Part shown: positions 2,911 to 18,201 of the stretch, piece after piece | Numbering within the stretch: position 1 is the first letter of the stretch | How the letters are laid out: each line of letters begins with the position of its first letter | Assembly (NCBI GenBank): GCA_019239415.1 | Contig: JAFAZW010000088.1 | Coordinates: forward strand, 1 to 64,000 | From: Alphaproteobacteria bacterium | GTDB taxonomy: Bacteria > Pseudomonadota > Alphaproteobacteria > Sphingomonadales > Sphingomonadaceae | DNA length: 64,000 nucleotides | Direction of reading: 5' to 3' | Position numbers and translations under genes: made by a program | The notes under the pieces: generated by a model | The model's database searches: none | What the model saw: the letters and a program-made list of their open reading frames with translations, nothing else | Told to the model about the DNA's origin: nothing

Positions 2911-2985
2911 AAAAGGGGACACGTACTTTTTCACGAAAAAGTACGTGTCCCCATTCAGGAGAAAATACGTCTCCCCATTCAGGAG
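2911..2985. repeat. GGGGACACGTAC palindrome plus 24-bp tandem copy
   Basis: A perfect 17-bp inverted repeat (GGGGACACGTACTTTTT at 2915-2931 and its complement at 2936-2952) with a 4-nt loop. It is followed by a repeated CCCCATTCAGGAG (2949-2961 and 2973-2985). Arms identical to these recur at 26421-26458 and shorter ones at 60290-60356. It sits between two convergent genes and could act as a bidirectional terminator; the stop codon of the cupin gene lies inside it. Confidence 0.85.
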
Positions 2986-4019
2986 CGGGCGAGGAGCCGG
3001 CGGAGCATCGCGGTGACGCGGGCGCGCTGCTCGGGGGTCATCGGCGCGAGGATGCCCTGGGCATGCGCGGGGAGGTGGCCGGCCGGGTCGCCGTTCGCGT
3101 CGAAGACATAATGGTCGAACACCATCCGCCACACCGCCTTCTGGTCGGCGGGGAGGCCCTTGAAGGCGTGGAGGGCGTGGAGCAGGGCGTCGTAGCCGCG
3201 CGGCGCGGTCGCCGGGTCGGCGGCGCGGGTCGCGTCGTTCCACCAGTAGTTGACGAGCAGGTTCAGGGGCGCGAGCGAGTCGACGGCGTGCCACCAGTGG
3301 AACGGGATGTAGAGGGCGTCGCCGGGCGCGAGCGTGGCGGTCTCGGCCTCGGCGGCGGCCGCGGCGTAGCGGGGGAAGCGGGCGAGGTCGGGCGCGGCGA
3401 GGTCGACGAGGCTGACGGGGGTGCCGGCCGGGGTGAGCTCGAAGGGGCCGGGATAGAGGTTGGGGAGCTGGTCCGGAGGGAAGAGGGTGAAGCGGCGGCG
3501 GCCGGCGACGACCACGCCGACATTCTCCATCAGGTCGTAATGGGCGGCGACGCGGACCCGGTTGCCGAGCCAGGCGCGCGGCGTCACGTCGGCGGCGACG
3601 AGCGGGAGCGGGTTGGCGCGCTCGAAGCCCGGGAGGAGCTCGGGGACCGGCTCTGACTGCACCGCCATCGCGATGGGGGCGGCGTGGTCGCGGTCGCGCA
3701 GCAGGCGGTCGAGGAAGGGGAAGAGGGGCGAGGTGCCGCGGGTGAAGTTCAGCGCCTTCATGTCGTCGGTGTAGAAGAAGCGGCCGGCGATCTCCGGCTG
3801 GCCGACGATCGCGCCGACGGGCCGGTCGTCGCGGCGGAACGACTTCAGGTAAGCGACGAACTCCTCGTCGGAGGCGCGGGCGGCGGCGACGGCGGGCCAG
3901 TCGGCGGCCTGGCCGCGCAGGACCACGGGCCGGCCGGCGGGCCGGATCTCGGCGTCGAAGGCGGCGCGGTCGACCGGGCCGCGCTCGGCGATCGGCCGCG
4001 GCGCCGGAAGCGCCGTCAT
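2979..4019 (-). CDS. Cupin-8/JmjC-like domain protein, last gene of the halogenase operon
   Basis: A 346-aa protein of the cupin-like (JmjC, PF13621-type) fold. The double-stranded beta-helix shows the iron-binding set: AAHYDLMENVG (HxD) and, later, FHWWHAVDS (distal His), with GRRRFTLFPP between them. Members of this fold are Fe(II)/2-oxoglutarate oxygenases that hydroxylate proteins or small molecules; activity here is inferred. The ATG overlaps the stop of the upstream halogenase gene by 4 nt (ATGA), so it is translated as part of the five-gene operon. A paralogue is encoded at 13878-14900 beyond the TonB receptor. The stop codon falls in a palindromic repeat. No signal peptide is evident, so it is probably cytoplasmic. 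Confidence 0.85.
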   Translation of the reverse strand: MTALPAPRPIAERGPVDRAAFDAEIRPAGRPVVLRGQAADWPAVAAARASDEEFVAYLKSFRRDDRPVGAIVGQPEIAGRFFYTDDMKALNFTRGTSPLFPFLDRLLRDRDHAAPIAMAVQSEPVPELLPGFERANPLPLVAADVTPRAWLGNRVRVAAHYDLMENVGVVVAGRRRFTLFPPDQLPNLYPGPFELTPAGTPVSLVDLAAPDLARFPRYAAAAAEAETATLAPGDALYIPFHWWHAVDSLAPLNLLVNYWWNDATRAADPATAPRGYDALLHALHAFKGLPADQKAVWRMVFDHYVFDANGDPAGHLPAHAQGILAPMTPEQRARVTAMLRRLLARS

Positions 4020-5563
4020 GCGCCGGTCCGCGGGGGCGCCCGCAGGCTCTCGCCGGAGAAGCTGCCGCGGGCGCGGAGGAACTCCTCCTGGGCGGGCATC
4101 AGCCGGGCGGTGTTGGCGACGACGTCGCGGATGTGGGCGAGGCGCGTCAACGTCTCCTCGTCGGGGAGGAGGTCGGCCGCCGGGTGGTAGCCGCCGGCGA
4201 CGATCCCCTGGCCGACCATCACCGAGAGCCAGCTCGTCTCGGTGAACAGCTCGTTATGCTCGCGGAAGACGCGGCCGTTGCGGCGGAACATGGCGAGCTT
4301 CTCGGCGAGGCCGTCGGGCGGCGGCAGGATGCGGCAATAGTCCCAGAACGGCGTGTCGTCGCGCTCCGTCGCCTTGTAGTGGAGGACGAGGAAGTCGCGG
4401 ATATCGACATATTCGCGCTCGGTCAGCGCGTTGTAGCGCGCGATCTCGGCCTCGTCGAAACGGCGGGTGGGAAACAGGGTGAGCAGACGCGCGAGGCCCG
4501 ACTGGACGAGGTGGATCGAGGTCGATTCGAGCGGCTCGAGGAAGCCGCCGGCGAGGCCCAAAGCGACGACGTTCTTGACCCAAGCCTGGCGGCGATGGCC
4601 GGCGCGGAAGCGCAGCGGGCGCGGATCGGCGAGAGCCGGCGCGTCGAGGTTGGCGAGGAGCGTGGCGGCGGCTTCGTCGTCGCTGAGATGCTCGGAGGAA
4701 TAGACATAGCCGTTGCCGGTGCGGTGCTGGAGCGGGATCCGCCATTGCCAGCCGGCGGGGCGGGCGGTCGAACGGGTGAGGGGCTGGCGGTCGCCGGAGC
4801 TCTCGCAGGGGACGGCGAGGGCGCGATCGCAGGGCAGCCATTGGCACCAATCCACGAAGCCGGCGCCGAGCGTCTGCTCGATGAGGAGGCCGCGAAAGCC
4901 CGAGCAGTCGATGAAAAGGTCGCCCTCGACCCGGGCGCCGCTCTGCAGGGTGACGGCTTCGATGAAGCCGGTCTCGCCGTTCCGGACGACGTCGACGATG
5001 CGGCCTTCGGTCCGCACCACGCCCTTCGCCTCGGAGAGACCGCGCAGGTAGCGGGCGTAGAGGCTGGCGTCGAACTGGAAGGCATAGCCGATCCGCGACA
5101 GCGGCGAGTTGGGCTGGTCGGCGCGCGGGTGGTCGAACCTGGAGGCGAGCGCGGCGACGGCGCCGAGCGAATAGGCGTCGAGCGGCGCGCGGTCGCCGAG
5201 GGCGCGGCCCTTCAGCCAATGGTGGTGGAATTCGACCCCCAGCATGTCGATGCCGTAGAAGCCGAACGGATGGATGTAGCGGTGGCCGATCCGGGTCCAG
5301 TCGCGAAACTCGATGCCGAGCTTGTAGGTGGCGTTGGTGGCGCGGACGAAATCGGCCTCGTCGATGCCGAGCAGGTTGTTGAACAGGACGATCTGCGGGA
5401 TCGTCGCCTCGCCGACGCCGACGGTGCCGATCTCGTCCGATTCGACCAGCTCGATGACGAGCCCGGGGAGGGTGCCGATCACGGTCGACAGAGCGGCCGC
5501 CGCCATCCAGCCGGCGGTGCCGCCGCCGACGACGACGATCTTCCTGATATTGTCCGTTCTCAG
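4016..5563 (-). CDS. Flavin-dependent tryptophan-halogenase family protein, probable CTG start
   Basis: About 515 aa if translation starts at CTG 5563. The first ATG (5506) lies inside the FAD fold and would remove the nucleotide-binding motif VVVGGGTAGW, which is in frame just upstream; no ATG, GTG or TTG precedes that motif in this frame. CTG 5563 overlaps the preceding stop as CTGA and has GGAG eight bases upstream, matching the ATGA overlaps at the other junctions of this operon. Family hallmarks are all present: GVGEATIP, catalytic Lys in ATYKLGIEF, GWQWRIPLQHR, and FLEPLESTSIH with the conserved Glu. These enzymes use FADH2, O2 and halide to make a halogenating species. The substrate is unknown and need not be free tryptophan. 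Confidence 0.85.
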   Translation of the reverse strand: MRTDNIRKIVVVGGGTAGWMAAAALSTVIGTLPGLVIELVESDEIGTVGVGEATIPQIVLFNNLLGIDEADFVRATNATYKLGIEFRDWTRIGHRYIHPFGFYGIDMLGVEFHHHWLKGRALGDRAPLDAYSLGAVAALASRFDHPRADQPNSPLSRIGYAFQFDASLYARYLRGLSEAKGVVRTEGRIVDVVRNGETGFIEAVTLQSGARVEGDLFIDCSGFRGLLIEQTLGAGFVDWCQWLPCDRALAVPCESSGDRQPLTRSTARPAGWQWRIPLQHRTGNGYVYSSEHLSDDEAAATLLANLDAPALADPRPLRFRAGHRRQAWVKNVVALGLAGGFLEPLESTSIHLVQSGLARLLTLFPTRRFDEAEIARYNALTEREYVDIRDFLVLHYKATERDDTPFWDYCRILPPPDGLAEKLAMFRRNGRVFREHNELFTETSWLSVMVGQGIVAGGYHPAADLLPDEETLTRLAHIRDVVANTARLMPAQEEFLRARGSFSGESLRAPPRTGA

Positions 5564-7104
5564 AACACGAACTCCGGCAGCGGCGGCTTGGGCGCCGGCC
5601 CCTGGGCGGCGCAGGTGCGGGCGATGAACTCGGCGTGGGTCGGCAGCCGCCCGGCGACGTCGAGGATGGCGGTGCGCATCTGCTCGAGCGCCTGCGCCAC
5701 CCGCTCCTCGTCGAGCGCGTCGACGGCGGGCTCGTAATCGTCGGGCACGATCCCTTGCCCGAGCATCGCCGCCACCCAGCTCGTCGTCGCGAACACCTCA
5801 TAGCCTTCGCGGAACAGCCGGCCCTTCGCCTTCCACAGCGCGACCCGCCGCGCGAGGCTGTCCGGGATCGTCATCGTCCGGCAGTACCTCCAGAAGTCGG
5901 AATCGTCCCGCCGCGTTGCGTTGTAGTGGAGGATGATGAAATCGCGGACATCCTCGAACATGTCGCGCATCTGCCGGTTGTATTCGTCGCGCTCGACCGG
6001 GTTGAAGCGGCGGTCGGGGAACAGGGCGATCAGCTTGGCGATGCCCGACTGGACGAAATGGATGCTGGTCGATTCCAGCGGCTCGATGAAGCCGGACGCA
6101 AGCCCCATCGAGACGACATTGGCGTTCCACGTCAGCTTGCGCCGGCCGGTGGTGAAGGCGAGCCTGCGCGGCTCGGCGAGCGGCTCGCCCTCGAGGTTCG
6201 CCTGCAGCGTCGCCAGCGCCTCGTCGTCGTCCATGAACTTGCTCGAATAGACGATGCCGTTGCCCATCCGGTGCTGGAGCGGGATCCGCCACTGCCAGCC
6301 CTTGGCGTGGGCCGTGGCGCGGGTGAAGGGATCGGGCTGGCCCTGATAGGTGGTGGGAAGGGCGATGGCGCGGTCGGCGGGAAGCCAGTGGGTCCAATCC
6401 TCGTAGCCGCTGTTCAGCGCGCCCTCGATGAGCAGGCCGCGAAAGCCCGAGCAGTCGATGAACAGCTCGCCCTCGATCGTCTGGCCGCTGGCGAGGGTCA
6501 CGGATTGGACGAAGCCGTCCTCCGCCCGCTGATTGACGCCGGTGATCCGCCCCTCGACACGCTGCACCCCGCCCCGCTCGGCATAAGCGCGCAGGAAGCG
6601 GGCGTAGAGACCGGCGTCGAAATGGAAGGCGTAGAAGAGCTGGCTGAGCGGGAAGCCGGCCTCCGGCCCGGGCCGCGCGTAGCGGCCGTGGGCGGCGGCG
6701 ACGGCGCTCATCGACCAGGCGGAGATGTCCTCCATCACCCGCCGCTTGCGCTCGCGCAGGTAGAGCTGGTGGAAGTGGACGCCCTCGAGGTCGTGGCCGT
6801 GGCTCCCGAACGGGTGGAAATAACGCTCGCCGACCGCGCCCCAGTTGACGAACTCGATGCCGAGCTTGAACGAGCCCTGGGTCGCCGCGACGAACTCGTT
6901 CTCGTTGATGCCGAGCATCCGGTTGAAGGTGATGAGCGGCGGGATCGTCGCCTCGCCGACGCCGACGGTGCCGATCTCCTCCGATTCGACGAGGGTCACC
7001 TTGGTGACGCCGTTGTTGAGGAAGCGGGCGAAGGCGGCCGCGGCCATCCAGCCGGCGGTGCCGCCGCCGACGATGACGACGTTCCGGATCGTGTGTTCGT
7101 TCAT
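5560..7104 (-). CDS. Flavin-dependent tryptophan-halogenase family protein
   Basis: A 514-aa protein, full length for the family. The N-terminal dinucleotide motif is VVIVGGGTAGWM (residues 9-20), followed by GTVGVGEATIP (residues 45-55) and the catalytic-type Lys80 in GSFKLGIEF, the equivalent of PrnA Lys79. GWQWRIPLQHR is the WxWxIP fingerprint that separates halogenases from monooxygenases, and IEPLESTSIHF carries the conserved Glu. It needs reduced flavin from a separate reductase, which is not visible in the window. It is the fourth gene of the operon and overlaps both neighbours by 4 nt. All key residues are present, so I expect an active enzyme; the halide and substrate cannot be read from sequence. 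Confidence 0.9.
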   Translation of the reverse strand: MNEHTIRNVVIVGGGTAGWMAAAAFARFLNNGVTKVTLVESEEIGTVGVGEATIPPLITFNRMLGINENEFVAATQGSFKLGIEFVNWGAVGERYFHPFGSHGHDLEGVHFHQLYLRERKRRVMEDISAWSMSAVAAAHGRYARPGPEAGFPLSQLFYAFHFDAGLYARFLRAYAERGGVQRVEGRITGVNQRAEDGFVQSVTLASGQTIEGELFIDCSGFRGLLIEGALNSGYEDWTHWLPADRAIALPTTYQGQPDPFTRATAHAKGWQWRIPLQHRMGNGIVYSSKFMDDDEALATLQANLEGEPLAEPRRLAFTTGRRKLTWNANVVSMGLASGFIEPLESTSIHFVQSGIAKLIALFPDRRFNPVERDEYNRQMRDMFEDVRDFIILHYNATRRDDSDFWRYCRTMTIPDSLARRVALWKAKGRLFREGYEVFATTSWVAAMLGQGIVPDDYEPAVDALDEERVAQALEQMRTAILDVAGRLPTHAEFIARTCAAQGPAPKPPLPEFVF

Positions 7105-8561
7105 CGCGCGGCTTGCCTCGAAAGCGTTTGAAGAGTGGCGGCGTGGCTGGGGACGCCGGGCACCAGCCCCGCGATCCCGCTGCGCAGCGCCGCCATCGCC
7201 GCCGCGGAGTCGCGCGGCGGCACGACGTCGATCAGCGGGTCGGACGCGCGCGGCATTACCCCCTGGCCGAGCAGCACGGCAAGCCAGGCGTCGCGCCCGA
7301 ACGTCTCCTCTTCATAGAAGGGGAGGCGGCCGCGGGCGCGGAACAGGGCGAGGGTGTGGGCGAGCGACGGCGGCGGCTCGGCGGCGGCGGCCTCTCGCCA
7401 GAAGGGGTCCGGCCGCTCCGACGCGAGGTAGTGAAGGGCGAGGAAGTCGCGCACCCGGTCGGCCTCGGTCGCCGCCTGGCGGTTATAGTCCCACAATTCG
7501 ACCGGGTTGAAGTCGCGCGCCGGCATCATCGCGACCAGCCGGTCGATGCCGCTGTGGGCGAGGTGGAGGTTGGTCCATTCGAGCGGCTCGACCCGCACCG
7601 CGGCGTCGCCGATCGCGACGCAGTTCTTCAGCCACGGCTGCGCCACCCGACCCTGGCGGAGCGGGACTCCCTCCGCCGCGCCGGCATGGGCGGCGCTGAA
7701 CAGGCGTCCCTCGGTGGCGAGGAGCGGCGAGGCCGAGCGCCATCGCCAGCCCGCCGGCTCCGCGGCCGCCGTGTCGAGAAGCGGCGGCTCGCCGGCATCG
7801 GCGGGGCCTTCGGCCATCGTGAAGCGGTCGCAGGGAAGCCAGCGACCCCAGTCTTCGAGGCGCAGCCCGAGCGCCGATCGGAGCAGCGCGCGCGGTCCGG
7901 TCGCGTCGACGAAAAGGTCGGCTTCGAGCGCCGTGCCGTCCGCCATCTCCACCGCTTCGATGCAGCCGCTTTCGCCGGCGAGGCGGACGCGGGCGATCGC
8001 CCCCTCCCGCTCCACCGAGCCGAGGTGGAGGGCGAAGGCGCGCATGAGGTGGTGGTAACGGGTCGGCGTTAGCGTCAGGCCGAAGGCGAAGCCGGCGAGC
8101 GGGGTGCCCGGTGGCCCGGCCGGATGCGTGAAGCGCCCGGCGCGGGCGAGCGCGGCGGCGGGGCTGTAGGCGTTGAAAGCCTCCGCTTCGCCGGCAAGCG
8201 CGGCGCGCACCCAATGCTGATGGAACGACGCGGTGCCGAACGGGCGGCCGTGCTCGCCATAGGCATGAACGTAGGCGGACCGGCCCATCGTCCATCCTTC
8301 GAACGCGGTGCCGAGGCGGAAGCCGCTGCCGGCGCGGACCACGGTGTCGGCCTCGGTGAGGCCAAGATCGTCGTGGAAGTTGATGATCGGCGGCAGGCAG
8401 GACTGGATCCGGTCGGCCAGCGCGTCCTCGGGCGGCGGCAGCGGCACGACCGTCACCGCCAGCGCCGGGATGCGCTTGCGCAGCGCCGCCGCGGCCGACC
8501 AGCCGACGATGCCGCCGCCGGCGACGAGGACGCGGCCGATGGGCGGCGCCGTCACGGTCAC
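7101..8561 (-). CDS. Degenerate halogenase-family paralogue, probably non-halogenating
   Basis: A 486-aa protein clearly related to its neighbours over its length but with the catalytic signature eroded. The Rossmann motif survives (VLVAGGGIVGW, residues 11-21). GVGEAT is replaced by a region reading RIQSCLPP, the catalytic Lys is Arg82 (GSGFRLGTAF), WxWxIP has become GWRWRSASP, and EPLEST has become EPLEWT. From family knowledge, loss of the active-site Lys abolishes halogenation in PrnA-type enzymes, so this may be a partner subunit, a flavin-binding scaffold or an oxidase with another chemistry. It is kept in frame with 4-nt overlaps on both sides, which argues against simple decay. Confidence 0.85.
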   Translation of the reverse strand: MTVTAPPIGRVLVAGGGIVGWSAAAALRKRIPALAVTVVPLPPPEDALADRIQSCLPPIINFHDDLGLTEADTVVRAGSGFRLGTAFEGWTMGRSAYVHAYGEHGRPFGTASFHQHWVRAALAGEAEAFNAYSPAAALARAGRFTHPAGPPGTPLAGFAFGLTLTPTRYHHLMRAFALHLGSVEREGAIARVRLAGESGCIEAVEMADGTALEADLFVDATGPRALLRSALGLRLEDWGRWLPCDRFTMAEGPADAGEPPLLDTAAAEPAGWRWRSASPLLATEGRLFSAAHAGAAEGVPLRQGRVAQPWLKNCVAIGDAAVRVEPLEWTNLHLAHSGIDRLVAMMPARDFNPVELWDYNRQAATEADRVRDFLALHYLASERPDPFWREAAAAEPPPSLAHTLALFRARGRLPFYEEETFGRDAWLAVLLGQGVMPRASDPLIDVVPPRDSAAAMAALRSGIAGLVPGVPSHAATLQTLSRQAAR

Positions 8562-10069
8562 GCCGCCATCGGGCAGTAGCTGGCGATGCGGCCGAGATGG
8601 TCCGGCATCGCTTCGGCGGTCGCGCGCACCTCGGCGCGGAACGTCGCCATCGCCTTGAGCAGCGCGTCGGCCGGCGGCGCGTCGGCGCGCATGTCGTGGC
8701 CTTCGGGGATGACGCGCTGACCGAGGTAGACGGCGATCCAGCTCGCGTCGAGGAACACGCCCTCCCGATATTTCATTACCCGGCCGCGGCGACGGAACAG
8801 CTCCATCTTCTCCTTGAGCGTGTCCGGCACGTCCATCGTGCGGACATAGTTCCAGAAGTCGGAGTCGGTCCGCTCCGTGGCGTGGTAATGGAGGATCAGG
8901 AAGTCGCGGATGCGGTCATATTCGAGGTCGATCAGGCGGTTGAACTCGTCGCGCAGCAGCGGCGTGTCCGGCCCGTCGGGGAACAGCTCGAGCAGCAAGG
9001 TGATCGCGGCCTGGATCAGGTAGATGCTCGTCGATTCGAGCGGCTCGAGGAATCCGGAGGCGAGGCCGACGCCGACGACGTTGTGGACCCAGCTGCGCTC
9101 GCGCCGCCCCGCCTTGAACTTGAGCACGCGCGGCTCGGCGATCGGCTCGCCCTCGACGGCGGCGATCAGCGCCTCGGCGGCCTTGTCGTCCGACAGGAAG
9201 GCGCTCGGATAGACGTAGCCGTTGCCGGTGCGGTGCTGGAGCGGGATCCGCCAGCGCCAGCCCGATTCCATCGCGATGACGCCGGTATAGGGGGTCAGCG
9301 CCGTCGCGGTGCGGCACGGCATGGCGGTCGCGCGATCGTTGGGGAGCCAGCGCGACCAGTCCTGGAACGGCTCGCCCAGCGCGCGCCCGAGCAGCAGCGA
9401 CACGAAGCCGGAGCCGTCGACGAACAGGTCGCCGCCGATCCGCTCGCCGCTGTCCAGCGTCAGCGCGGTGACGTCGCCGGTCCCGCCGTCGCGGTCGACG
9501 CCGACGATCCGGCCCTCGGTGCGGCGCACGCCCAGGCCCTCGGCGAGGCGGCGCAGATAGGGCGCGAACAAGGTGGCGTCGAACTGATAGGCATAACCGA
9601 AGGTCGAGGCGAGCTCGGCCGGATCGGCGGCGGGCAGGTCGAAGCGGCCGAGCCGGGCCATCATGCAGGCGAGCGAATAGTTTTCGAGGTCCGGCACGTC
9701 GTGGCCGGCCTGGCGGAGCCGGAGCCAGTAATGGTGGAAATCGGGCTCGCCCGCGCCGCGCCCGAATGTGCCGAACGGGTGGATGTAGCTGTCGCCGATC
9801 CGCGCCCAATTCTCGAAATCGATGCCGAGCTTGAAGGTGGCGCGGGTGGCGGCCATGAACTCCGCCTCGGGGATGCCGAGACGCTCGTTGAAGGCGCGGA
9901 TGTGGGGCAGGGTGGCCTCGCCGACGCCGACGATACCGATGGCTTCCGATTCGACGAGATGCACGGCGCAGCGGGTCGGCAGCAGCTTGGCGAGCGCGGC
10001 CGCCGTCATCCACCCGGCGGTGCCGCCGCCGACGATGGTAACGTTCACTTTCCGCGCGGCGTCCGTCAC
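8558..10069 (-). CDS. Flavin-dependent tryptophan-halogenase family protein, first gene of operon
   Basis: A 503-aa protein and the promoter-proximal gene of the minus-strand operon. Motifs: VTIVGGGTAGWM (residues 10-21), GIVGVGEATLP (45-55), Lys80 in ATFKLGIDF, GWRWRIPLQHR, and FLEPLESTSIY. All catalytic features of the PrnA/RebH family are present. Its stop overlaps the start of the degenerate paralogue (ATGA). It reads away from the TonB receptor gene across a 290-bp intergenic region that holds a LacI-type operator. Halogenases in this setting (next to TonB receptors in Brevundimonas and Xanthomonas) have been shown to brominate indole in vitro, but their natural substrates are unknown as far as I recall. 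Confidence 0.9.
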   Translation of the reverse strand: MTDAARKVNVTIVGGGTAGWMTAAALAKLLPTRCAVHLVESEAIGIVGVGEATLPHIRAFNERLGIPEAEFMAATRATFKLGIDFENWARIGDSYIHPFGTFGRGAGEPDFHHYWLRLRQAGHDVPDLENYSLACMMARLGRFDLPAADPAELASTFGYAYQFDATLFAPYLRRLAEGLGVRRTEGRIVGVDRDGGTGDVTALTLDSGERIGGDLFVDGSGFVSLLLGRALGEPFQDWSRWLPNDRATAMPCRTATALTPYTGVIAMESGWRWRIPLQHRTGNGYVYPSAFLSDDKAAEALIAAVEGEPIAEPRVLKFKAGRRERSWVHNVVGVGLASGFLEPLESTSIYLIQAAITLLLELFPDGPDTPLLRDEFNRLIDLEYDRIRDFLILHYHATERTDSDFWNYVRTMDVPDTLKEKMELFRRRGRVMKYREGVFLDASWIAVYLGQRVIPEGHDMRADAPPADALLKAMATFRAEVRATAEAMPDHLGRIASYCPMAA

Positions 10070-10309
10070 CAGACCATGCCCCCGATGAGGCGGCGATGTT
10101 TAGGACCGGCCGCGGCGCCCGGTCAACGAAGCCTCCGCGCGCGCACGAAGGCGTCCGACGGCGCCAAGTGTTTGACGTTTTTGTTGCAAACGCGTCACAG
10201 GTTCGACCAATTTCGCCGAGTGCCGCGGCGGCTCCCGCCGGCGGCCTCTTGCTCCCGGATGAACGGCGCGGTATCGCACCGCGCAAAGAAGCCCGGTCGC
10301 GCGGCGTTT

Positions 10310-10323
10310 TGTTAGCGCTACCA
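10310..10323 (+). promoter_or_regulatory. LacI-family operator (xyl-box-like) upstream of the TonB receptor
   Basis: The 14-mer TGTTAGCGCTACCA is a near-palindrome around TAGCGCTA. It is repeated exactly at 26490-26503 before the GH10 xylanase gene. Its reverse complement, TGGTAGCGCTAACA, matches what I recall as the XylR 'xyl-box' of Xanthomonas xylan genes. It lies 36 bases before the receptor start, where a repressor would block transcription. The same site could also influence the divergent halogenase operon, about 240 bases away. Confidence 0.7.
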
Positions 10324-10359
10324 TAAGACCCGAGAAGGTCGGTAGGAGAGGGGAAGTCC

Positions 10360-13300
10360 ATGGCTCTGTCAGCCCGCACGTCCGTTTGCGAGAGCGAGTT
10401 TACGAAGCGCGCGTCGCTGTTGCGCTCCGGTGCCTCGCTGCTGGCGGTCTGCGCCTTCGCCGCTTCCGCCCCGGCCTTCGCCCAGACGCCGACCTCGCCC
10501 GGGACCGCGGGCAATCCGGCCAGCACGTCGAACACGGCCGGCCAGACCCAGCAGTCGAACCAGAACAGCGCCCCCGAGGACCGCACCAGTCAGTCGACGA
10601 CCCAGCCGGCGACTCCCGAGGACGAGGGCGCGATCGTCGTCACCGGCATCCGCCAGAGCCTGGCCAATTCGCAGAACATCAAGCGCAACGCCGATACGGT
10701 GGTCGACGCGATCACCGCCCAGGACATCGGCGCGCTGCCCGACCGCTCGGTGACCGAGGCGCTGCAGCGCGTGCCGGGCGTCTCGATCAACCGCTTCGCC
10801 GGCTCGAACGACCCCGATCACTTCTCGGTCGAGGGCTCGGGCGTGCAGATCCGCGGCCTCAACTTCGTCCGTTCCGAGTTCAACGGCCGCGACACCTTCT
10901 CCGCCGGCGTCGGCGGCCAGTCGATCAACTTCGCCGACGTGCCCTCGGAGCTGCTCGGCTCGGTCCAGGTCTACAAGAACACGACCGCCGACATGATCGA
11001 GGGCGGCCTCGCCGGCATCGTCAATCTGAACACCCGCCTGCCCTTCGACCGCAAGGGCCTGCATGTCGGCTTCGACATCGAGGCCAATTACACCGACATG
11101 CGCAAGAAGTGGACGCCGACGGGCTCGTTCCTGATCAGCGACACGTTCGACACCACGTTCGGCCAGGTCGGCCTGCTCGCCGACTTTTCCTATTCGCGGC
11201 TGATGAACCGTTCCGACGGCATCCAGGTCACCAACTTCCAGACCCGCAACGGCACCGTCGCCGCCGGCGCCAACGGCGGCGGCAACGTCTGCCGCAACGG
11301 CCTGCCCTCGAACAGCGACACGCAGCAATTTCCGGCGGGCTGCTCGACCACCGGCGCCGCCGGCGCGAACGGCTTTGCCGACCTGCTGCCGACGGCGTAC
11401 GCGCCGCTCGGCGGCCAGTTCCGCACCCAGGATTACGACCACAAGCGCAAGGGCGTCGCCCTCGCCGGCCAGTGGCAGAGCCTCGACCGCCGCGCGACGC
11501 TGACGGCCCAGTTCCTGCGCACCGACTCGACCAATGCCTGGGGCGAGCACACGTTCGAGAGCGCGCCCGACCTGTCGGAGTACAACACCTATCCCAAGGG
11601 CTGCCGGCAGAACGGCAACGATCCCAACGGCCGGACCCGCGCCGAATGCCCGGTCGGCGGCTTCACCAACTATGTCTACGATTCGAACAACGTCTTCGAG
11701 AGCGGCTTCATCACCCAGCCGGGCAGCGGCTGGCGTAGCTTCACGAGCGGCCAGGCGACGTCGAACGTCCCGACCGGCGGCATGCAGCAGTCGCTGTCGC
11801 GGCGCCAGGTGCTCGACCATAACAAGGTCGACGACTTCGGCCTGAACTTCAAGTTCAACGCCACCGACCGGCTGTCGTTCAACTTCGACGCCGACTATGT
11901 CCGCGCCCGCCACGACAATCTCGACGTCAGCGTGTTCGGCTCGACCTTCGCCGACGAGGAGCTGGACCTGCGCGGCAACCTGCCGGTGGTGATCCCGCAC
12001 AAGCCGCTCACCCTCGCCGCGACCTGGGCGACGCCGAACCCGCGCATCGCCGGCGAGACCGACGCCCAATATTTCGCCGACCCGAACGTCCAGTTCTGGC
12101 GCGCGGCGATGGACCATATCGAGCATTCGACCGGCCACGAATATGCGTTCCGCGGCGACGTCGCCTATGACGTCAACAACGACATTCCGTTCATCAAGCG
12201 CGTCAAGGCCGGCCTCCGCTTCGCCGACCGCAACGAGACGGTGCGCTACACCACCTACAATTGGGGCGCGATCAGCGAGGTCTGGTCCGGCTCCAACGAC
12301 CCGGTCAGCGTCCAGCAGGGCGGATTGAGCAACGTCGCCTTCTTCAACTTCCCGAACTTCTTCCGGGGCGCGACGCCGGGTCCGGTCGGCGGCTATTATT
12401 ATAACGGCGACCTGATCGGAAATTATGCGGGCGCGTCGAAATACTTCCAGTCGCTGAACGCGCTGTGGAGGTCCGGCAACAGCCAGGGGCAGGGCTGGGT
12501 CCCGCTGTCCCAGCGCGCCACGGCCATTCCGGGCACCGACTTCCTGCCGAGCGAGGTCCAGCCGACCCGGGAGCAGGATACCGAGGCCTATGCGATGCTG
12601 AACTTCGGGAAGGACGATCCGATCTTCGGCAACGTCCGCCTCGATGGCAATATCGGCCTGCGCTACGTCAGCAGCGACATCACCTCGGTGGGCGCCTTCC
12701 AGATCACCCGGCTGGGGCTGGGCGTGACCGACGTCTATGCGGTCCGTTGCGCCGCGCGGGTCCCGCCGCTCCCGGCGCCGCAGGTGCCCGTCATCCCCGG
12801 CGGGATCTGCACGATCGGCGCGGCCGCCTACGACCAGCTACGGACATTCGCGGACAACTCGACCCCTGTGCCGAGCATCGCCAAGAACAGCTATCACTAT
12901 TTCCTGCCGAGCCTGAACCTGAAGTTCGGCATCACCCGCGACCTCATCTTGCGACTCGCCGGGTCGCGCGTCATCGCGCGCCCCGACCTGCAGAATATCC
13001 GCAACTTCCTCACGCTCGGCACCGACACCAGCAACGGCTTCCAGGTCCAGGCGACCGCCGGCAATCCGTACCTCAAGCCGGCGCTCGCCAATACCTTCGA
13101 CGCCAGCCTCGAATGGTATTTCGCCCGGGTCGGCTCGCTGACCTTCAACGCCTTCTACAAGGACGTGAAGAACTTCTTCTATTCGAGCAGCACGCAGCGC
13201 GCGATCACCAGCAACGGCGTCACCGAGACCGTCTTCGTGCGCGGCCCTGCCAACTTCCCCGGACACGGCAAGATCAAGGGCTTCGAGCTCGCCTACCAGC

Positions 13301-13788
13301 AGACGTTCGACTTCCTGCCGAGCTTCCTGTCGGGCCTCGGCGTCAACGCCAATTATACGTACATCGAGAGCAAGGGCCTGCCGAACTCCTTCCTCTCGGG
13401 CGGCCTTCCGGCCAACACGTCGCCGATCGGCACGGGCTTCACCCTGCCGCTCGAGCAGCTGTCGAAGCACAACGTCAACGTCACCGTCTTCTACGAGAAG
13501 GGGCCGGTGTCGCTGCGCGCCGCCTACAATTGGCGCTCACGCTTCCTGCTGACCTCGGCCGACGTGATCTTTCCCTACGCGCCGATCTTCAACGAGGCGA
13601 CCGGCACGCTCGACGCGTCGGCCTTCTTCACCGTGCGCAAGGGGATCAAGGTCGGCGTCCAGGGCGTGAACCTCCTGAACGAGGTCACCAAGACCTCGCA
13701 GATGTTCACCCTCTCCGGCCTCACCGGTCCGCGCTCCTATTTCGTCAACGACCGGCGCTTCTCGTTCATCCTTCGCGGCGACTTCTAG
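10360..13788 (+). CDS. TonB-dependent receptor (large, carbohydrate-locus type)
   Basis: A 1142-aa outer-membrane active transporter. It starts at ATG 10360 with GAGAGGGGAAG upstream. Residues 1-42 are the signal peptide (ending APAFAQ), then a Ser/Thr/Gln-rich stretch, the plug domain (EGAIVVTGIRQSL, IGALPDRSVTEALQRVPGVS, VQIRGLNF, GGLAGIVNLNTR) and a long 22-strand barrel ending in Phe (ILRGDF). The length and the 'TGIRQSL' plug start are typical of the sphingomonad, Caulobacter and Xanthomonas receptors tied to polysaccharide use. Energy comes from TonB-ExbBD, not encoded here. It has a LacI-type operator upstream and a strong terminator downstream, is divergent from the halogenase operon, and precedes a cupin and GH5 pair. 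Confidence 0.93.
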   Translation: MALSARTSVCESEFTKRASLLRSGASLLAVCAFAASAPAFAQTPTSPGTAGNPASTSNTAGQTQQSNQNSAPEDRTSQSTTQPATPEDEGAIVVTGIRQSLANSQNIKRNADTVVDAITAQDIGALPDRSVTEALQRVPGVSINRFAGSNDPDHFSVEGSGVQIRGLNFVRSEFNGRDTFSAGVGGQSINFADVPSELLGSVQVYKNTTADMIEGGLAGIVNLNTRLPFDRKGLHVGFDIEANYTDMRKKWTPTGSFLISDTFDTTFGQVGLLADFSYSRLMNRSDGIQVTNFQTRNGTVAAGANGGGNVCRNGLPSNSDTQQFPAGCSTTGAAGANGFADLLPTAYAPLGGQFRTQDYDHKRKGVALAGQWQSLDRRATLTAQFLRTDSTNAWGEHTFESAPDLSEYNTYPKGCRQNGNDPNGRTRAECPVGGFTNYVYDSNNVFESGFITQPGSGWRSFTSGQATSNVPTGGMQQSLSRRQVLDHNKVDDFGLNFKFNATDRLSFNFDADYVRARHDNLDVSVFGSTFADEELDLRGNLPVVIPHKPLTLAATWATPNPRIAGETDAQYFADPNVQFWRAAMDHIEHSTGHEYAFRGDVAYDVNNDIPFIKRVKAGLRFADRNETVRYTTYNWGAISEVWSGSNDPVSVQQGGLSNVAFFNFPNFFRGATPGPVGGYYYNGDLIGNYAGASKYFQSLNALWRSGNSQGQGWVPLSQRATAIPGTDFLPSEVQPTREQDTEAYAMLNFGKDDPIFGNVRLDGNIGLRYVSSDITSVGAFQITRLGLGVTDVYAVRCAARVPPLPAPQVPVIPGGICTIGAAAYDQLRTFADNSTPVPSIAKNSYHYFLPSLNLKFGITRDLILRLAGSRVIARPDLQNIRNFLTLGTDTSNGFQVQATAGNPYLKPALANTFDASLEWYFARVGSLTFNAFYKDVKNFFYSSSTQRAITSNGVTETVFVRGPANFPGHGKIKGFELAYQQTFDFLPSFLSGLGVNANYTYIESKGLPNSFLSGGLPANTSPIGTGFTLPLEQLSKHNVNVTVFYEKGPVSLRAAYNWRSRFLLTSADVIFPYAPIFNEATGTLDASAFFTVRKGIKVGVQGVNLLNEVTKTSQMFTLSGLTGPRSYFVNDRRFSFILRGDF

Positions 13789-13813
13789 GGGCCGCCGCCC
13801 ACGAGCCGTCCTC

Positions 13814-13848
13814 GGCCCCTTCCGCACCCGCGGAAGGGGCCTTTTTTT
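13814..13848 (+). terminator. Rho-independent terminator after the TonB receptor
   Basis: A perfect 12-bp stem (GGCCCCTTCCGC with GCGGAAGGGGCC) and ACCC loop, followed by seven T residues. It begins 26 bases after the receptor stop. The next gene starts only 30 bases beyond the T-tract, so that gene needs read-through or a promoter within or near the terminator. Confidence 0.93.
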
Positions 13849-13877
13849 GCGCCTTCGCGAGGCCTAGCGTCGGCCCC

Positions 13878-14900
13878 GTGAAACCCGCCCCGCCGCCCGT
13901 CGAAGAGGCCGAAGCCGGCGATCCTGCCGCCTTTGCCGCCATCGTCGCGGCGGCGCGTCCGGTGGTGCTGCGCGGCGCCGTGAAGCACTGGCCGGCCGTG
14001 GGGGCGGCATCGCCGGGCGGGGCGGCAGCCGCCGCCTATCTCGCGCGCTTCGATCGCGGCGCGGCGGCGGAGGCGTTCGTCGCGCCGCCCGCGGCGGCGG
14101 GACGGTTCTTCTACGATGGCGCGCTTACCGGCTTCAATTTCGCGCGCCGGCCGGGGGCATTCGCGGCCATCGTCGCGGCCATCGCCGGGCTCGAAGGCCG
14201 CGCCGACGCGCCGTCCATCTACGTCGGCGCCGCGCCGGTGCCGGAGGTCGTGCCCGGTTTCGAGCGCGAGAACCCGCTGCCCCTGCTCGCCGGGCTCGGC
14301 GCGGTGCCGCGCATCTGGATCGGCACCGCCAGCATCGTCAGCACCCATTTCGACGAATCCGACAATCTCGCGTGCGTCGTCGCCGGCCGCCGCCGCTTCA
14401 CCCTGTTTCCGCCGGAGCAGGTGGCGAACCTCTACGTCGGGCCCCTGGACTTCACGATGGCGGGCCAGCCGACCAGCATGGTGGACCTGCGCGCGCCAGA
14501 TCTCGAACTCTATCCGCGCTTCGCGCGCGCGCTGGCCGCCGCCCGCATCGCCGAGTTGGAGCCGGGCGACGCGCTCTACGTGCCGGCCTTGTGGTGGCAC
14601 AATGTCGAGGCGTCCTCGCCGTTCAACATCCTGGTCAACCATTGGTGGCGGGCGACGCCCGACGACGCCGGCTCGCCCTTCCTGGCGCTCGTCCATGCGA
14701 TCCTGTCCGTCGCCGCGCTCCCGGAGGCGCAGCGGCGCGGCTGGCGCGCCAATTTCGACCAATTCGTCTTCCGCGACGGCGATGCCGATCCGGCTGCCCA
14801 TCTGCCGGAGGCGCGGCGGGGCATCCTCGCCGCGCCGACGCCGGCGCTGCGCCGGCGCATCCGCCAGTTCATCCTCGCCATGCTGGGCAGACTCGCATGA
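13878..14900 (+). CDS. Cupin-8/JmjC-like domain protein downstream of the TonB receptor
   Basis: A 340-aa protein; GTG 13878 is the only plausible start after the upstream terminator, with a weak ribosome binding site. It is a paralogue of the operon protein at 2979-4019: metal-binding HxD in STHFDESDN, then GRRRFTLFPPEQ, PTSMVDLRAPDLE and the distal His in LWWHNVEAS, followed by NILVNHWW. The conserved 2-His-1-carboxylate set suggests an Fe(II)/2-oxoglutarate oxygenase; this is an inference from the fold. Its stop overlaps the start of the GH5 gene (ATGA), so the two are co-translated. The pair of cupins on either side of the receptor suggests related but non-identical substrates. Confidence 0.85.
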   Translation: MKPAPPPVEEAEAGDPAAFAAIVAAARPVVLRGAVKHWPAVGAASPGGAAAAAYLARFDRGAAAEAFVAPPAAAGRFFYDGALTGFNFARRPGAFAAIVAAIAGLEGRADAPSIYVGAAPVPEVVPGFERENPLPLLAGLGAVPRIWIGTASIVSTHFDESDNLACVVAGRRRFTLFPPEQVANLYVGPLDFTMAGQPTSMVDLRAPDLELYPRFARALAAARIAELEPGDALYVPALWWHNVEASSPFNILVNHWWRATPDDAGSPFLALVHAILSVAALPEAQRRGWRANFDQFVFRDGDADPAAHLPEARRGILAAPTPALRRRIRQFILAMLGRLA

Positions 14901-16228
14901 TCCCGACCCGCCGCGACCTCCTGTCGGCTGCCGCCGCGCTGGCGGTCACCGCGGCGGCGCCGGCGCCGCGTCGGGCGTTCGTCCGGCGCGCAGGCACGCA
15001 GTTCCGCCGCAGCGGCCATCGCTATCCGGTCGTCGGCGCGAACCTGTGGTATGCGGCGTGGCTCGGGGCGCCGGCGCCGCTCGGCGACCGCGGCCGGCTG
15101 CGCCGCGAGCTCGATCGGCTGGCGGCGCTCGGCGTCAACAACCTGCGCATCCTCGCCGGCGCCGAATTGTCCCCGCTGAAGAACTCGGTCACGCCCGCCT
15201 TCCGCTCGGCGAGGCCGCCGTACAACCAGGCGCTGCTCGAGGGCCTCGACTTCGCACTCGCCGAGCTCGGCCGGCGCGGCATGACGGCGGTGCTCTACCT
15301 CACCAATTTCTGGGAATGGTCGGGCGGGATGGTGACCTACCTCTCCTACGTCAACGGCGGCCGCTACGTGAACATGAACGACCCGGCCCACCCCTGGCCG
15401 GAATTCCCGGACTTCGCGAGCGGCTTCTACGGCAATCCGGCCGCGGTCGGCCTGTACCGCGACTATGTCCGCGCCGTCGTCGGGCGGACCAGCCGCGTCA
15501 CCGGCCGCGCCTATCGCGACGAGCCGGCGATCATGGCCTGGCAGCTCGCCAACGAGCCGCGGCCGGGGGGAAGCGAGGCGGCCGGACGGCGGGCGATGCC
15601 GGCCTTCCAGGCCTGGATCCGGGATACGGCGCGGCTGATCAAGGCGCTCGATGGCAACCACCTCGTCTCGACGGGGGCGGAAGGTCTCAACTCCTGCCTC
15701 CAGGATGCCGCCTGCGTGCTCGCGGCGCACCGCAATCCGGAGATCGACTATCTGACCGCCCATGTCTGGCCGCTCAACTGGGGCTGGATCGACGCCAGGG
15801 ACCTTGCCGGCACCTGGGCGGCGGGCGCCGACAGGTCGCGCGCCTACATCGCCGCCCACGCGGATTTCGCCCAGGCGCTCGGCAAGCCGCTGGTGATCGA
15901 GGAATTCGGCTATCCGCGCGACGGCGGCGCCTACGATCCGGGGACGCCGACGCACTGGAAGGACCGCTTCTACCGGCTCGTCTACGAGGCGGTCGAGGCT
16001 AGCGCGCGGGGCGGCGGGCCGATCGCCGGCGCCAATTTCTGGGCGTGGGGCGGGGAGGGGCGGGCGCCCCACCCGGACCACGCCTTCCGGCGCGGCGAGC
16101 GCGCCTGGCTGGGCGATCCGCCCCACGAGCCGCAGGGCTGGTACAGCGTCTTCGACCGCGACGAGACCACCAAGGCCGTCGTCCGCGACTATGCGAGTGC
16201 GATGCGCGGGAGCGCCGCTGCCGGTTGA
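14897..16228 (+). CDS. GH5-family endo-beta-mannanase-like glycoside hydrolase
   Basis: A 443-aa protein with a Tat-type signal (TRRDLLSAAAALAV, residues 4-17), so probably exported folded. The (beta/alpha)8 catalytic domain resembles subfamily GH5_7 mannanases: VVGANLWYAAW near residue 50, acid/base Glu220 in WQLANEPRP, conserved TAHVWPLNWGW around residue 290, and nucleophile Glu336 in VIEEFGYPRD. The expected reaction is internal hydrolysis of beta-1,4-mannan; a mannosidase activity is possible. It is translationally coupled to the preceding cupin gene, linking carbohydrate cleavage to the receptor/halogenase locus. Confidence 0.85.
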   Translation: MIPTRRDLLSAAAALAVTAAAPAPRRAFVRRAGTQFRRSGHRYPVVGANLWYAAWLGAPAPLGDRGRLRRELDRLAALGVNNLRILAGAELSPLKNSVTPAFRSARPPYNQALLEGLDFALAELGRRGMTAVLYLTNFWEWSGGMVTYLSYVNGGRYVNMNDPAHPWPEFPDFASGFYGNPAAVGLYRDYVRAVVGRTSRVTGRAYRDEPAIMAWQLANEPRPGGSEAAGRRAMPAFQAWIRDTARLIKALDGNHLVSTGAEGLNSCLQDAACVLAAHRNPEIDYLTAHVWPLNWGWIDARDLAGTWAAGADRSRAYIAAHADFAQALGKPLVIEEFGYPRDGGAYDPGTPTHWKDRFYRLVYEAVEASARGGGPIAGANFWAWGGEGRAPHPDHAFRRGERAWLGDPPHEPQGWYSVFDRDETTKAVVRDYASAMRGSAAAG

Positions 16229-16327
16229 CGCCCGGTTAACCGTCTAACCTGAGCATTCGTCAACGCCTCGTCAGGCATGATGCGGTCGTGCGCCGCTCCC
16301 TGGCGCATGCGCAAGAACGGTGGTCCC

Positions 16328-18139
16328 ATGTCGCTGCGCCGCACCCTCGCCTTCCTCGCGATCGCCCTTTCGGGCACTGCCGCCGCCGCGGCCGAGCCCG
16401 CGTGGCGCGTCACCGAAGCCGCCGGCAGCGTCGCTGTGCGCCAAGGGCCGCGACTCGTGCCGATACGCCGCGGCGCGACCCTCCACCCGGGATCCGTGGT
16501 GGAGACCGCCCCCGGCGCCCGCGCCGTGCTCGTGCGCGGCCAGGACTACGTCATTGTCTCGCCGCACACCCGGCTGCGCCTGCCCGAAGGCCGCGACGCG
16601 CGCGGCATCGTCCAGGTGATCGAGGATTACGGCCGCGCCTCGTTCCGCATCGAGAAGAAGGCGGCGCCCCATTTCGGCGTCCGCACCCCCTACCTCGTCG
16701 CCCTCGTGAAGGGGACGGTGTTCACCGTCTCCGTCGACGACGCCGGGGCTTCGGTGGCGGTCGACGAGGGGCGGGTCGAGGTCACGACGCCCACCGGCAG
16801 CATGCGCGAAATGGTGCTCCCGGGCCGCATCGGCACCGTCGCGGCGCGGTCCCCGGACAAGCTCGAAGTGGCCAATTTCACCCCCGCCGCCGGCGATACG
16901 CCGGACGCGAAGGCGAGAGGCGCCGCGGCGAAGGGCGAGGGTGCCGACGCCGCCGACGGCCGCGCCGGCGCCTCCGAATCCGATTCGTCCAGCAGCGCCG
17001 CGGACCATCGGGAAAGTGGCCCCACCGACAAGGCGGACGACAAAGGCGCCCGCGAGAAGCCGGACGACAAGGGTTCGGGCGACAAGGGCGTGGACGATAA
17101 GGGTCCGGGCGAAAAGGGTGCGGGCGACAAGGGTGCGGCCGACAGGGGCGCGGGCGACAAGCATGCCGACGCCCGTCCGGACGATCCGAAGTCCGACAAG
17201 GCCGCTGGCGAGGCTGCGGGCAACGGCTCCAAACATCTCTCGCCACCGTCCCCGCGGGTCGATCCCACGACGGTGATCCTCACCGTCGCCGGGCAGGAAG
17301 TCGCCGTTCCCACCAAGCACGCCACGAAGGATTTGCAGAGCCAGGCCCTCGCGCTGGCCAGCAACTCCAGCCATGGCAAGGGAAAGCCGGATGTGGGCGG
17401 TCCTCCCACCGGTCCCGGTCCCTCGGGGAACACGAACGGACCGGCCGGCAACGGCAATGGAAACGGCTCCAGCAACGGCAACGGTCCCGGCTCCAGCAAC
17501 GGGAACGGCCCAGGCTCCAGCAACGGGAACGGCCCGGGTTCCAACAACGGGAACGGTCCCGGCTCCAGCAACGGTAACGGCCCAGGCTCCAGCAACGGGA
17601 ACGGCCCGGGTTCCAACAACGGGAATGGTCCCAGCGGATCCGGCAACGGCAATGGCGGCGGCAATTCCGGGGCGGGCGGCTCCGGCAACGGCAACGGCAA
17701 TGGCAATGGCGGTGGCAATTCCGGCAACGGCGGCGCTTCGACCCCTGTGCCGATACCGGCGTCCGCACCGGTTCCTGCCCCTGCGCCAGTGCCCACCCCT
17801 GCGCCCGCGCCGGTGCCCGCGCCGGCCCCGGTGCCGACGCCCGCGCCAGCTCCGGTTCCTACGCCGGCGCCAGCTCCGGTTCCTTCGCCCGCGCCGGACC
17901 CGGTCCCGGCGCCCTTGCCGTCGCCCGCTCCGACACCTGTGCCCGCGCCGGACCCGGCTCCGGCTCCGGCTCCGGCTCCCGCTCCGGCCCCCGCGCCCGC
18001 TCCTGCTCCCGCGCCTGCGCCTGATCCGGCTCCCGCGCCCGCACCTGCCCCTGCTCCGGCTCCCGCCCCGGCGCCTGCGCCTGCGCCCGCGCCGAAGCCG
18101 GTGCCGAAAACCTGCGTCCTCGGCCTTATCTGCTTGTGA
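16328..18139 (+). CDS. FecR-domain secreted protein with low-complexity repeat tails
   Basis: A 603-aa protein; ATG 16328 is chosen because a clean signal peptide follows (RRTLAFLAIALSGTAAAAA). Residues ~45-160 form a FecR domain (GSVVETAPGARAVL, DYGRASFRIEKK, GTVFTVSVDDAG), but no ECF sigma factor or anti-sigma transmembrane segment is present, so it is not a classical FecR regulator. Then come DKG-rich pentapeptide repeats (236-278), seven exact-length GSSNGNGP octapeptides (380-435), a Gly/Asn tract, and a Pro-Ala tail (about 473-593) ending KTCVLGLICL with two Cys. It looks like a cell-surface stalk or filament protein. It is followed by a Slam-like barrel and a CHASE2-EAL gene. Confidence 0.75.
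   Translation: MSLRRTLAFLAIALSGTAAAAAEPAWRVTEAAGSVAVRQGPRLVPIRRGATLHPGSVVETAPGARAVLVRGQDYVIVSPHTRLRLPEGRDARGIVQVIEDYGRASFRIEKKAAPHFGVRTPYLVALVKGTVFTVSVDDAGASVAVDEGRVEVTTPTGSMREMVLPGRIGTVAARSPDKLEVANFTPAAGDTPDAKARGAAAKGEGADAADGRAGASESDSSSSAADHRESGPTDKADDKGAREKPDDKGSGDKGVDDKGPGEKGAGDKGAADRGAGDKHADARPDDPKSDKAAGEAAGNGSKHLSPPSPRVDPTTVILTVAGQEVAVPTKHATKDLQSQALALASNSSHGKGKPDVGGPPTGPGPSGNTNGPAGNGNGNGSSNGNGPGSSNGNGPGSSNGNGPGSNNGNGPGSSNGNGPGSSNGNGPGSNNGNGPSGSGNGNGGGNSGAGGSGNGNGNGNGGGNSGNGGASTPVPIPASAPVPAPAPVPTPAPAPVPAPAPVPTPAPAPVPTPAPAPVPSPAPDPVPAPLPSPAPTPVPAPDPAPAPAPAPAPAPAPAPAPAPAPDPAPAPAPAPAPAPAPAPAPAPAPKPVPKTCVLGLICL
17465..17632 (+). repeat. Seven 24-bp in-frame tandem repeats
   Basis: Seven consecutive 24-bp units encode G-S-S/N-N-G-N-G-P. 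Units differ by a few synonymous changes, and two carry Asn in place of Ser. Spacerless, in-frame units of this kind indicate copy-number change by slippage within a coding sequence. Confidence 0.95.
17743..18105 (+). repeat. Proline-alanine coding repeat
   Basis: About 120 codons of alternating Pro and Ala/Val (PAPAPVPTPAP units, then pure PA dipeptides) at the 3' end of the FecR-domain gene. It is likely an extended, rigid spacer similar to TonB-like or cell-wall-spanning linkers. Confidence 0.9.
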
Positions 18140-18201
18140 TGCCTAACGGTTTTTCAACCTTGCTGCAGTAGGTCCGGTGCTCCGGACGAAACGGAGCGAG
18201 G

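Follow-up and report, generated by a model that had tools for sequence, protein, structure and literature searches.

A lysine-less halogenase paralogue and an operator-like palindrome at a TonB receptor locus of a Sphingomonadaceae bacterium

Genes of the halogenase and receptor locus

We analysed a stretch of 64,000 nucleotides (nt) from a Sphingomonadaceae bacterium (assembly GCA_019239415.1, contig JAFAZW010000088.1; the whole stretch is called the window here), in which a series of flavin-dependent halogenase (FDH) genes lies next to the gene of a TonB-dependent receptor. The host genome amounts to 3.49 Mb and is 97% complete, and the window belongs to its contig C21 in our numbering. Four FDH or FDH-like genes, P, D, Q and R, and a gene for a cupin-8/JmjC oxygenase-like protein form an operon in the order P-D-Q-R-cupin-8 on the minus strand (2979-10069), and all four junctions are 4-nt overlaps of stop and start codons, the start of D overlapping the stop of P as GTGA. 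The receptor gene, a second cupin-8/JmjC gene and a glycoside hydrolase family 5 (GH5)-like gene are divergent from this operon (Table 1). An earlier note on this DNA had described a tightly overlapping operon of three intact and one degenerate FDH genes with a cupin-8 gene, divergent from a large TonB receptor gene and a second cupin-8 gene, and this layout is borne out.

P, Q and R carry the features of BrvH-like FDHs, namely the GxGxxG flavin adenine dinucleotide (FAD) motif, the catalytic lysine, WxWxIP and EPLEST, and they fall into class A (102 of 157 FDH-like open reading frames (ORFs) that were classed, with 37 in class B and 18 lower-scoring). They score 461-559 bits against BrvH and about 255-310 bits against the free-tryptophan halogenases PrnA, RebH and PyrH; BrvH is described as being without the residues that hold the amino and carboxy groups of tryptophan (PMC5945002). 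In the PDB, the best match of P is BrvH (4.8e-137); Q matches BrvH at 1.2e-166 and Xcc4156 at 7.6e-160, and R matches Xcc4156 at 3.9e-153 and BrvH at 1.1e-152. The identity among P, Q and R is 47-52%, that of D to each of them 33-35%, and that between the two cupin-8 proteins 47%. Judged by eye, the FDHs start with the FAD motif and have no signal peptide, unlike the receptor; an alternative ATG at 5506 would remove this motif from R. Both cupin-8 proteins contain HxD...H, which we take to be an iron-site motif. One Flavin_Reduct gene (PF01613) was found in the genome, on another contig, and none in the locus, so that for this family the supposed absence of a local flavin reductase holds.

The best PDB matches of the GH5-like protein are GH5 Man5A (1uuq, 5.5e-115) and exo-beta-1,4-mannosidases (4lyp, 1.3e-73); of the description mannanase-like given previously, the family stands, but an exo-beta-mannosidase is the closer likeness. 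Downstream of this gene follow genes for a second TonB receptor, a Stf0 sulfotransferase and GH10, GH115 and GH9 enzymes. The Stf0-type sulfotransferase gene (25633-26439) is an unexpected neighbour, immediately ahead of an operator-like site and the GH10 gene. FecR-domain, SlipAM-type and CHASE2-EAL genes occupy 16307-21587, between the two halves of the putative xylan locus. Directly downstream of the FDH operon, a perfect 18-bp inverted repeat (GGGGACACGTACTTTTTC / AC / GAAAAAGTACGTGTCCCC, 2915-2952), which by eye resembles repetitive extragenic palindromes, is followed by a partial second copy. A search for Rfam families at gathering scores in 1-34000 gave none, and no sigma-70-like promoter or terminator was found between the two divergent operons.

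Table 1. Positions of genes and operator-like sites in the window
Feature	Coordinates	Strand	Basis and remarks
FDH P (P0005, 503 aa), operon gene 1	8558-10069	-	PF04820 603.2 bits; class A; P clade
FDH-like protein D (P0004, 486 aa)	7101-8561	-	PF04820 326.6 bits; Lys replaced by Arg (R82), WxWxIP lost
FDH Q (P0003, 514 aa)	5560-7104	-	PF04820 657.4 bits; class A; catalytic residues intact
FDH R (P0002, 515 aa)	4016-5563	-	PF04820 638.5 bits; class A; TTG start; catalytic residues intact
Cupin-8/JmjC oxygenase-like protein (P0001, 346 aa)	2979-4019	-	Cupin_8 207 bits
TonB-dependent receptor (P0006, 1142 aa)	10360-13788	+	TIGR01782 648.9 bits (cut-off 310)
Second cupin-8/JmjC gene	13878-14900	+	Cupin_8 227 bits; start uncertain (13878 is the gene-caller start)
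GH5 exo-beta-mannosidase-like gene (P0011)	14897-16228	+	No Pfam match above its cut-off
GH10 endoxylanase	26513-27679	+	PF00331 270 bits
GH115 alpha-glucuronidase	27757-30165	+	PF15979 483 bits
GH9-like glycosidase	30177-32771	+	PF00759 35.7 bits (cut-off 27.7)
LacI-type operator-like 14-bp palindrome TGTTAGCGCTACCA	10310-10323	.	In the 290-nt gap between P and the receptor gene
Second copy of the palindrome TGTTAGCGCTACCA	26490-26503	.	10 nt ahead of the called GH10 start

The lysine-less paralogue D

The loss of catalytic residues in D extends to its relatives. In a sample of 99 genomes of the order (E <= 1e-60, with at most 14 FDH and 8 receptor candidates scored per genome), the lysine is lost in all 16 D proteins (R in 7, A in 4, S in 3, T in 1 and V in 1), and WxWxIP is retained in one (locus L059). 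Two further proteins, from L100 and L160, were excluded from this group since both keep the lysine, the latter being moreover truncated where its contig ends. In 16 of 16 loci, D lies directly downstream of a class-A FDH of the P subtype, with a 4-nt ATGA or GTGA overlap in 14. FastTree placed the 16 D proteins in one monophyletic group (support 1.0) and their 16 P neighbours in one clade (support 0.535, or 0.928 with one further FDH), and the distances among D and among P proteins correlate at 0.774, with permutations giving at most 0.417.

A search with the window's D in named genomes yielded 31 loci, of which 30 are in records titled Sphingomonas, metagenome assemblies among them, and one in a record titled Arthrobacter; the best match is in S. 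abaci (59% identity). These loci were recovered by D itself, so only its surroundings count as new evidence: a receptor, P, D and a further FDH are present in 31 of 31, a cupin-8 gene in 15 and a GH10 gene in 9, and P and D overlap by 4 nt in 25 of 30 loci and by 1 nt in the other 5. The lysine column holds arginine in 31 of 32 D ORFs, with one gap. The record titled Arthrobacter sp. TPD3018 (L204) has the receptor-P-D-FDH layout of the Sphingomonas records; a wrong title or contamination is likelier here than transfer. Outside the order, a search of the phylum found a lysine-less D-like ORF beside an FDH in 3 of 17 FDH loci, from genomes that share only the phylum with the window: receptor-FDH-D-FDH-DUF6445 with GH115 (L250), receptor-P-D with two GH3 genes (L251) and receptor-P-D-FDH (L252). 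These ORFs score low (103-157 bits), which makes their lysine column less sure, and they were placed with D by position, not by tree. Distinguishing D from active FDHs outside the order by score alone was tried and fails; D-like ORFs were found only beside FDH matches. A conserved neighbourhood in relatives, which the earlier note had made one half of the test of its proposal, is present.

Judging by its residues, D is very probably inactive as a halogenase, because the BrvH variant K83A is described as having lost all activity (PMC5945002). The AlphaFold2 model of D (predicted local distance difference test score 93.4) has BrvH as its best structural match (template modelling score 0.91, 36% identity); D keeps the predicted fold, yet it is not to be called a halogenase. 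The word degenerate therefore suits its active site but not the gene, which is open throughout and conserved. That D might be a decaying duplicate of P with no role would fit its faster divergence (mean identity 0.26 versus 0.54 for P), its shortening to 337-401 aa in 3 of 16 loci and the state of the S. daechungensis locus L209 (8436-11411, complete chromosome), where P and D are each split into two ORFs by a frameshift or sequencing error. Yet no internal stop occurs in the 16 D genes of the order sample or in 30 of the named loci, D is under purifying selection, with a median dN/dS of 0.27 (121 pairs) beside 0.22 for P (238 pairs, the pairs being non-independent), R82 is invariant in 26 of 26 rows of the D alignment A2, and order and overlap are fixed across two families of the order, with similar triplets beyond it; decay is hardly credible in view of this. 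That an active paralogue and one that is very probably inactive are paired by what looks like translational coupling suggests a hetero-oligomer, and D is likely a non-catalytic partner of P.

Receptors, glycans and a shared operator-like palindrome

FDHs are present in 54 and TIGR01782 receptors in 68 of the 99 genomes of the order sample. Of the 130 FDHs scoring 555 bits or above, at least 93 have a receptor within 10 kb, as has at least 1 of the 20 lower-scoring ones, among 150 FDHs and 150 receptors listed. The loci fetched comprise 80 of the 109 FDH clusters in other genomes, the FDH loci of the window's own genome, and 42 of the 83 receptor places with no listed FDH, two of them in the own genome. 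Profile searches on six-frame ORFs covered 125 loci. In 105 of these a receptor reaches 600 bits or more, accompanied by an FDH in 72 and by none in 33. Cupin_8 was found in 26 of the 72 loci with an FDH versus 0 of the 33 without, SapC in 21 versus 0 and DUF6445 in 8 versus 0; the loci were chosen for FDHs or receptors, and these counts cover the accessory genes within them. Class B FDHs, which mostly carry a WxWD motif, stand with SapC beside other TIGR01782 receptors (L155, L161, L170, L178 and L181), two of these loci also having DUF6445. Elsewhere in the window's own genome, contig C15 has a maltodextrin-type locus (L058) in which two further FDH genes stand beside LacI, a receptor, a major facilitator superfamily transporter and two GH13 genes, and contig C94 has a third cupin-8 gene (L060, 9481-10497, apart from the 125 loci) with no FDH or TIGR01782 match in 20 kb. 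Among 398 genomes of the phylum, the receptor occurs in 53 of the 63 whose FDHs match the D alignment versus 26 of the 335 that have no such match, a comparison uncorrected for kinship. Outside the order, at least 23 of 72 FDHs lie within 10 kb of a receptor, considering matches from about 290 bits upward and at most two scored receptors per genome.

Furthermore, the two partners diverge together. When receptors are labelled by their FDH (class A, class B or none), the receptor tree requires 9 changes, compared with at least 32 in 300 shuffles. For 65 nearest receptor-FDH pairs, the correlation of the distance matrices is 0.714, compared with maxima of 0.087 under free permutation and 0.436 when FDHs are shuffled only within genomes, and the best matches of receptor and FDH agree in 478 of 735 cases, with 269 expected by chance. 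In genomes with several loci, 45 of 49 loci have their closest FDH in a different genome. Going by these trees and distances, receptor and FDH look like inherited glycan-specific units.

This pattern bears on the possibility that the FDHs produce a small halogenated molecule for signalling or defence, such as bromoindole, during feeding, with one copy per glycan serving sugar-specific induction. Regulation alone would then account for the copy number, and BrvH is reported to brominate free indole, slowly (PMC5945002). Such a role leaves three active subtypes and a dead one in a single operon unexplained, however; the nearest FDHs lying in other genomes suggest non-redundant roles, and nothing resembling a biosynthetic cluster stood out in the Pfam scan of 19 window proteins. 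We regard a small halogenated product as unlikely.

By glycan type, an FDH is present in 15 of 16 loci of the maltodextrin type, which combine GH13 with GH97 or the transporter, in 8 of 8 GH16 loci and in 0 of 8 pectin-type loci. GH10 occurs in 5 of the 16 D loci (counting the window) versus 0 of 57 other class-A loci, and at least one of five xylan-type markers is present in 7 of 16 versus 2 of 57; the marker queries came from the window, L059 and L074, which match by construction, and the counts concern genes within the 20-kb view. The earlier note had supposed a plant-cell-wall setting, with which the GH10, GH115, GH9 and GH5 genes and an operator common with D-xylose oxidation genes agree, and had proposed that an imported aromatic is modified. 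FDHs and cupins would then halogenate and hydroxylate feruloyl or lignin-linked xylan fragments entering with the glycan, and the locus does resemble a xylan locus; xylan can bear ferulate. However, an imported plant aromatic is unlikely as a general substrate because FDHs of the same class stand at maltodextrin-type and GH16 loci, whose glycans, judging by the genes, should be free of aromatics. Nor was any feruloyl-esterase or aromatic-catabolism family seen among the 19 window proteins scanned, and the GH10 gene matches a xylanase/feruloyl-esterase model weakly (85 bits, cut-off 1200). An imported aromatic is very improbable, and this part of the earlier proposal is not supported.

A 14-bp palindrome of the LacI operator type connects the locus with xylose genes. 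Allowing up to one mismatch, the window holds 2 matches, where shuffles predict 0.04; the copy at 26490 lies within the longest possible GH10 ORF, which would start at 26369. Genome-wide, there are 4 places with the pattern TGNTAGCGCTANCA and 1 with the reversed pattern, where base composition predicts about 0.07. The other two sites are both at D-xylose oxidation genes on contig C19 (L249). One precedes a minus-strand run of genes for an FAA-hydrolase fold protein, D-xylose 1-dehydrogenase (NF053674, 420 bits, curated NCBIfam cut-off 400), an SMP-30 lactonase and a SASA esterase, and the other is flanked by an aldehyde dehydrogenase gene and a GH3 gene; about 5 kb off on the other strand, genes for an ILVD/EDD dehydratase and a sugar porter have no site. 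We take this gene set to be an oxidative Weimberg-type D-xylose pathway. Because the four places of the palindrome are this locus, GH10 and the D-xylose genes, the locus looks like part of a xylan/xylose regulon, as far as site positions and gene families can tell, and control of the shared operator by a repressor is highly likely. In the order sample, a site with at most one mismatch stands no more than 900 nt ahead of the receptor gene for 17 of 65 receptors linked to class A, compared with 1 of 34 receptors without an FDH and 0 of 9 linked to class B. Of the 31 named loci, 16 carry such a site ahead of P, between -30 and -257 relative to the estimated P start; the 637 kb of these loci contain 28 sites altogether, a plain count not set against shuffles. 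The FDH operon of the window appears to be tied to xylose/xylan, and elsewhere this link is present in part of the loci only.

Candidate substrates and relation to known systems

The explanation that we find best as a whole, with a probability of about 0.4, is a xylan uptake arm in which a P-D unit, Q, R and the cupin modify a peptidic substrate. The locus would be the outer-membrane uptake arm of a xylan/D-xylose utilisation system, and a LacI-family repressor would use the one 14-bp operator to control the FDH/cupin operon and the receptor gene as well as the GH10-GH115-GH9 genes and the distant D-xylose oxidation genes. FDHs and cupins, lacking a signal peptide by eye, would act in the cytoplasm. 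P and D would be co-made through translational coupling and form a hetero-oligomer, in which D, its catalysis lost, may be a positioning, stabilising or substrate-docking subunit. The P-D unit, Q, R and the JmjC-like cupin would brominate or hydroxylate a large peptidic substrate of the uptake system, for which the TonB receptor before its export would be the most probable candidate.

A peptidic substrate is favoured because the open pocket of BrvH was likened by its authors to that of MibH, which chlorinates tryptophan within a peptide (PMC5945002), and because the cupins are kin to protein hydroxylases. Indeed, the nearest solved relatives of P0001 are FIH, JMJD5 and JMJD7, and the second cupin-8 protein is JMJD7/FIH-like, although similarity is low (best 69 bits each). 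Of the options raised in the earlier note, that of a peptide or receptor is therefore the one we favour, and we tentatively suggest that the substrate is a protein or peptide. The pairing of FDHs with receptors per glycan makes the receptor the first candidate; that it is the actual substrate is nonetheless somewhat doubtful, because no aromatic receptor residue passed a test for tracking the FDHs. This test compared FDH-linked receptors with FDH-free ones, including six FDH-free receptors inside FDH-bearing clades. One phenylalanine column came just under the threshold (0.82 of FDH-A receptors versus 0.36 of FDH-free ones outside their clades and 0.50 inside). Inspection of candidate columns likewise produced no clear case. 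Losses within clades were compared too: the FDH-free maltodextrin-locus receptor of L182 lacks 8 of 15 aromatics conserved in its FDH-linked kin (versus 35 of 133 other residues), but this was dropped as evidence, since L165 showed 3 of 15 (50 of 133); both receptors are at most 35% identical to FDH-linked ones.

The FDH fold might also serve otherwise, in a flavin monooxygenase whose substrate is a sugar or a protein, or in a redox or sugar sensor, with indole halogenation as a side activity. Native substrates are given as not established for BrvH and three Xanthomonas enzymes (PMC7336383), and the slow action of BrvH on indole fits a side activity. The active site speaks for halogenation, however: lysine and EPLEST or EPMEST are kept in 102 of 102 class A proteins, and the lysine is the residue that BrvH is reported to need for halogenation (PMC5945002). 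GxGxxG is likewise kept in 102 of 102 and WxWx(I/V)P in 101 of 102, and class B has the lysine in 36 of 37, with one gap. We consider a different use of the fold rather unlikely.

Several observations weigh against a xylan uptake arm with a modified receptor. The five receptor columns that do pass the FDH-tracking test are V, R, D, G and G, none of them aromatic, and the fractions of invariant aromatic residues overlap between FDH-bearing clades (0.07-0.16) and an FDH-free pectin clade (0.12). FDH and receptor would also diverge together through linked inheritance, so that co-divergence alone is no sign of contact. Genome G065 has a maltodextrin-type receptor locus (L182) and no FDH at 1e-60, and FDHs are hence dispensable for loci of this type. 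As to the operator, the site at P is absent in 15 of 31 named loci, the 16 sites present comprise 1 exact copy and 15 with one mismatch, and no LacI-type repressor (XylR) gene was identified in this genome.

Tying an FDH class to receptor loci, in this genome to one operator, and to a conserved dead partner narrows the search for substrates to a few proteins and to growth on xylose or xylan, and it poses the question of why sugar uptake should need halogenation. P-type halogenases may need a partner subunit that single-enzyme assays would miss. In a bolder form, which is unlikely, a halogenase-hydroxylase set would modify outer-membrane receptors before export, with P obligately bound to its dead paralogue, and give halide-dependent tuning of sugar uptake, one set per glycan. 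If the receptor were the substrate, halogenation would be a protein modification in carbohydrate uptake.

We found no paper linking FDHs to TonB receptors or glycan loci in the open-licence part of the PMC literature, which is weak evidence of absence; the term TonB is absent from the texts of the BrvH, Xcc4156 and mSystems 2021 FDH papers by a term search. In a transposon screen of a freshwater Sphingomonas, one insertion in a tryptophan halogenase gene of unstated class is reported among colony-morphology genes (PMC11340318). The repressor is called XylR here by analogy with Caulobacter, where XylR is described as a repressor of the LacI family whose 14-bp operator lies on the xyl operon (PMC7198004); the likeness concerns the type of system. 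Xanthomonas carbohydrate utilisation (CUT) loci for pectin, xylan, maltodextrin and sucrose are reported to combine a TonB receptor with polysaccharide-degrading enzymes and sugar-specific induction (PMC1790865). Going by its genes, the present locus belongs with them, having a receptor, GH5, GH10, GH115 and GH9 genes and a common operator-like site. It differs in that FDHs and JmjC-like cupins are part of it, the word halogenase occurring 0 times in the text of PMC1790865. Among characterised enzymes, the indole-type FDHs BrvH (Brevundimonas, 6frl), Xcc4156 (Xanthomonas, 6y1w) and that of Pseudoalteromonas (9luq) are full-length homologues of P, Q and R with the same catalytic motifs, and brvH itself is described as standing in tandem with a second FDH gene, 42.7% identical (PMC5945002). 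Compared with BrvH and Xcc4156, the window presents a series of four FDH genes that includes a lysine-less member and lies in a probable xylose/xylan regulon.

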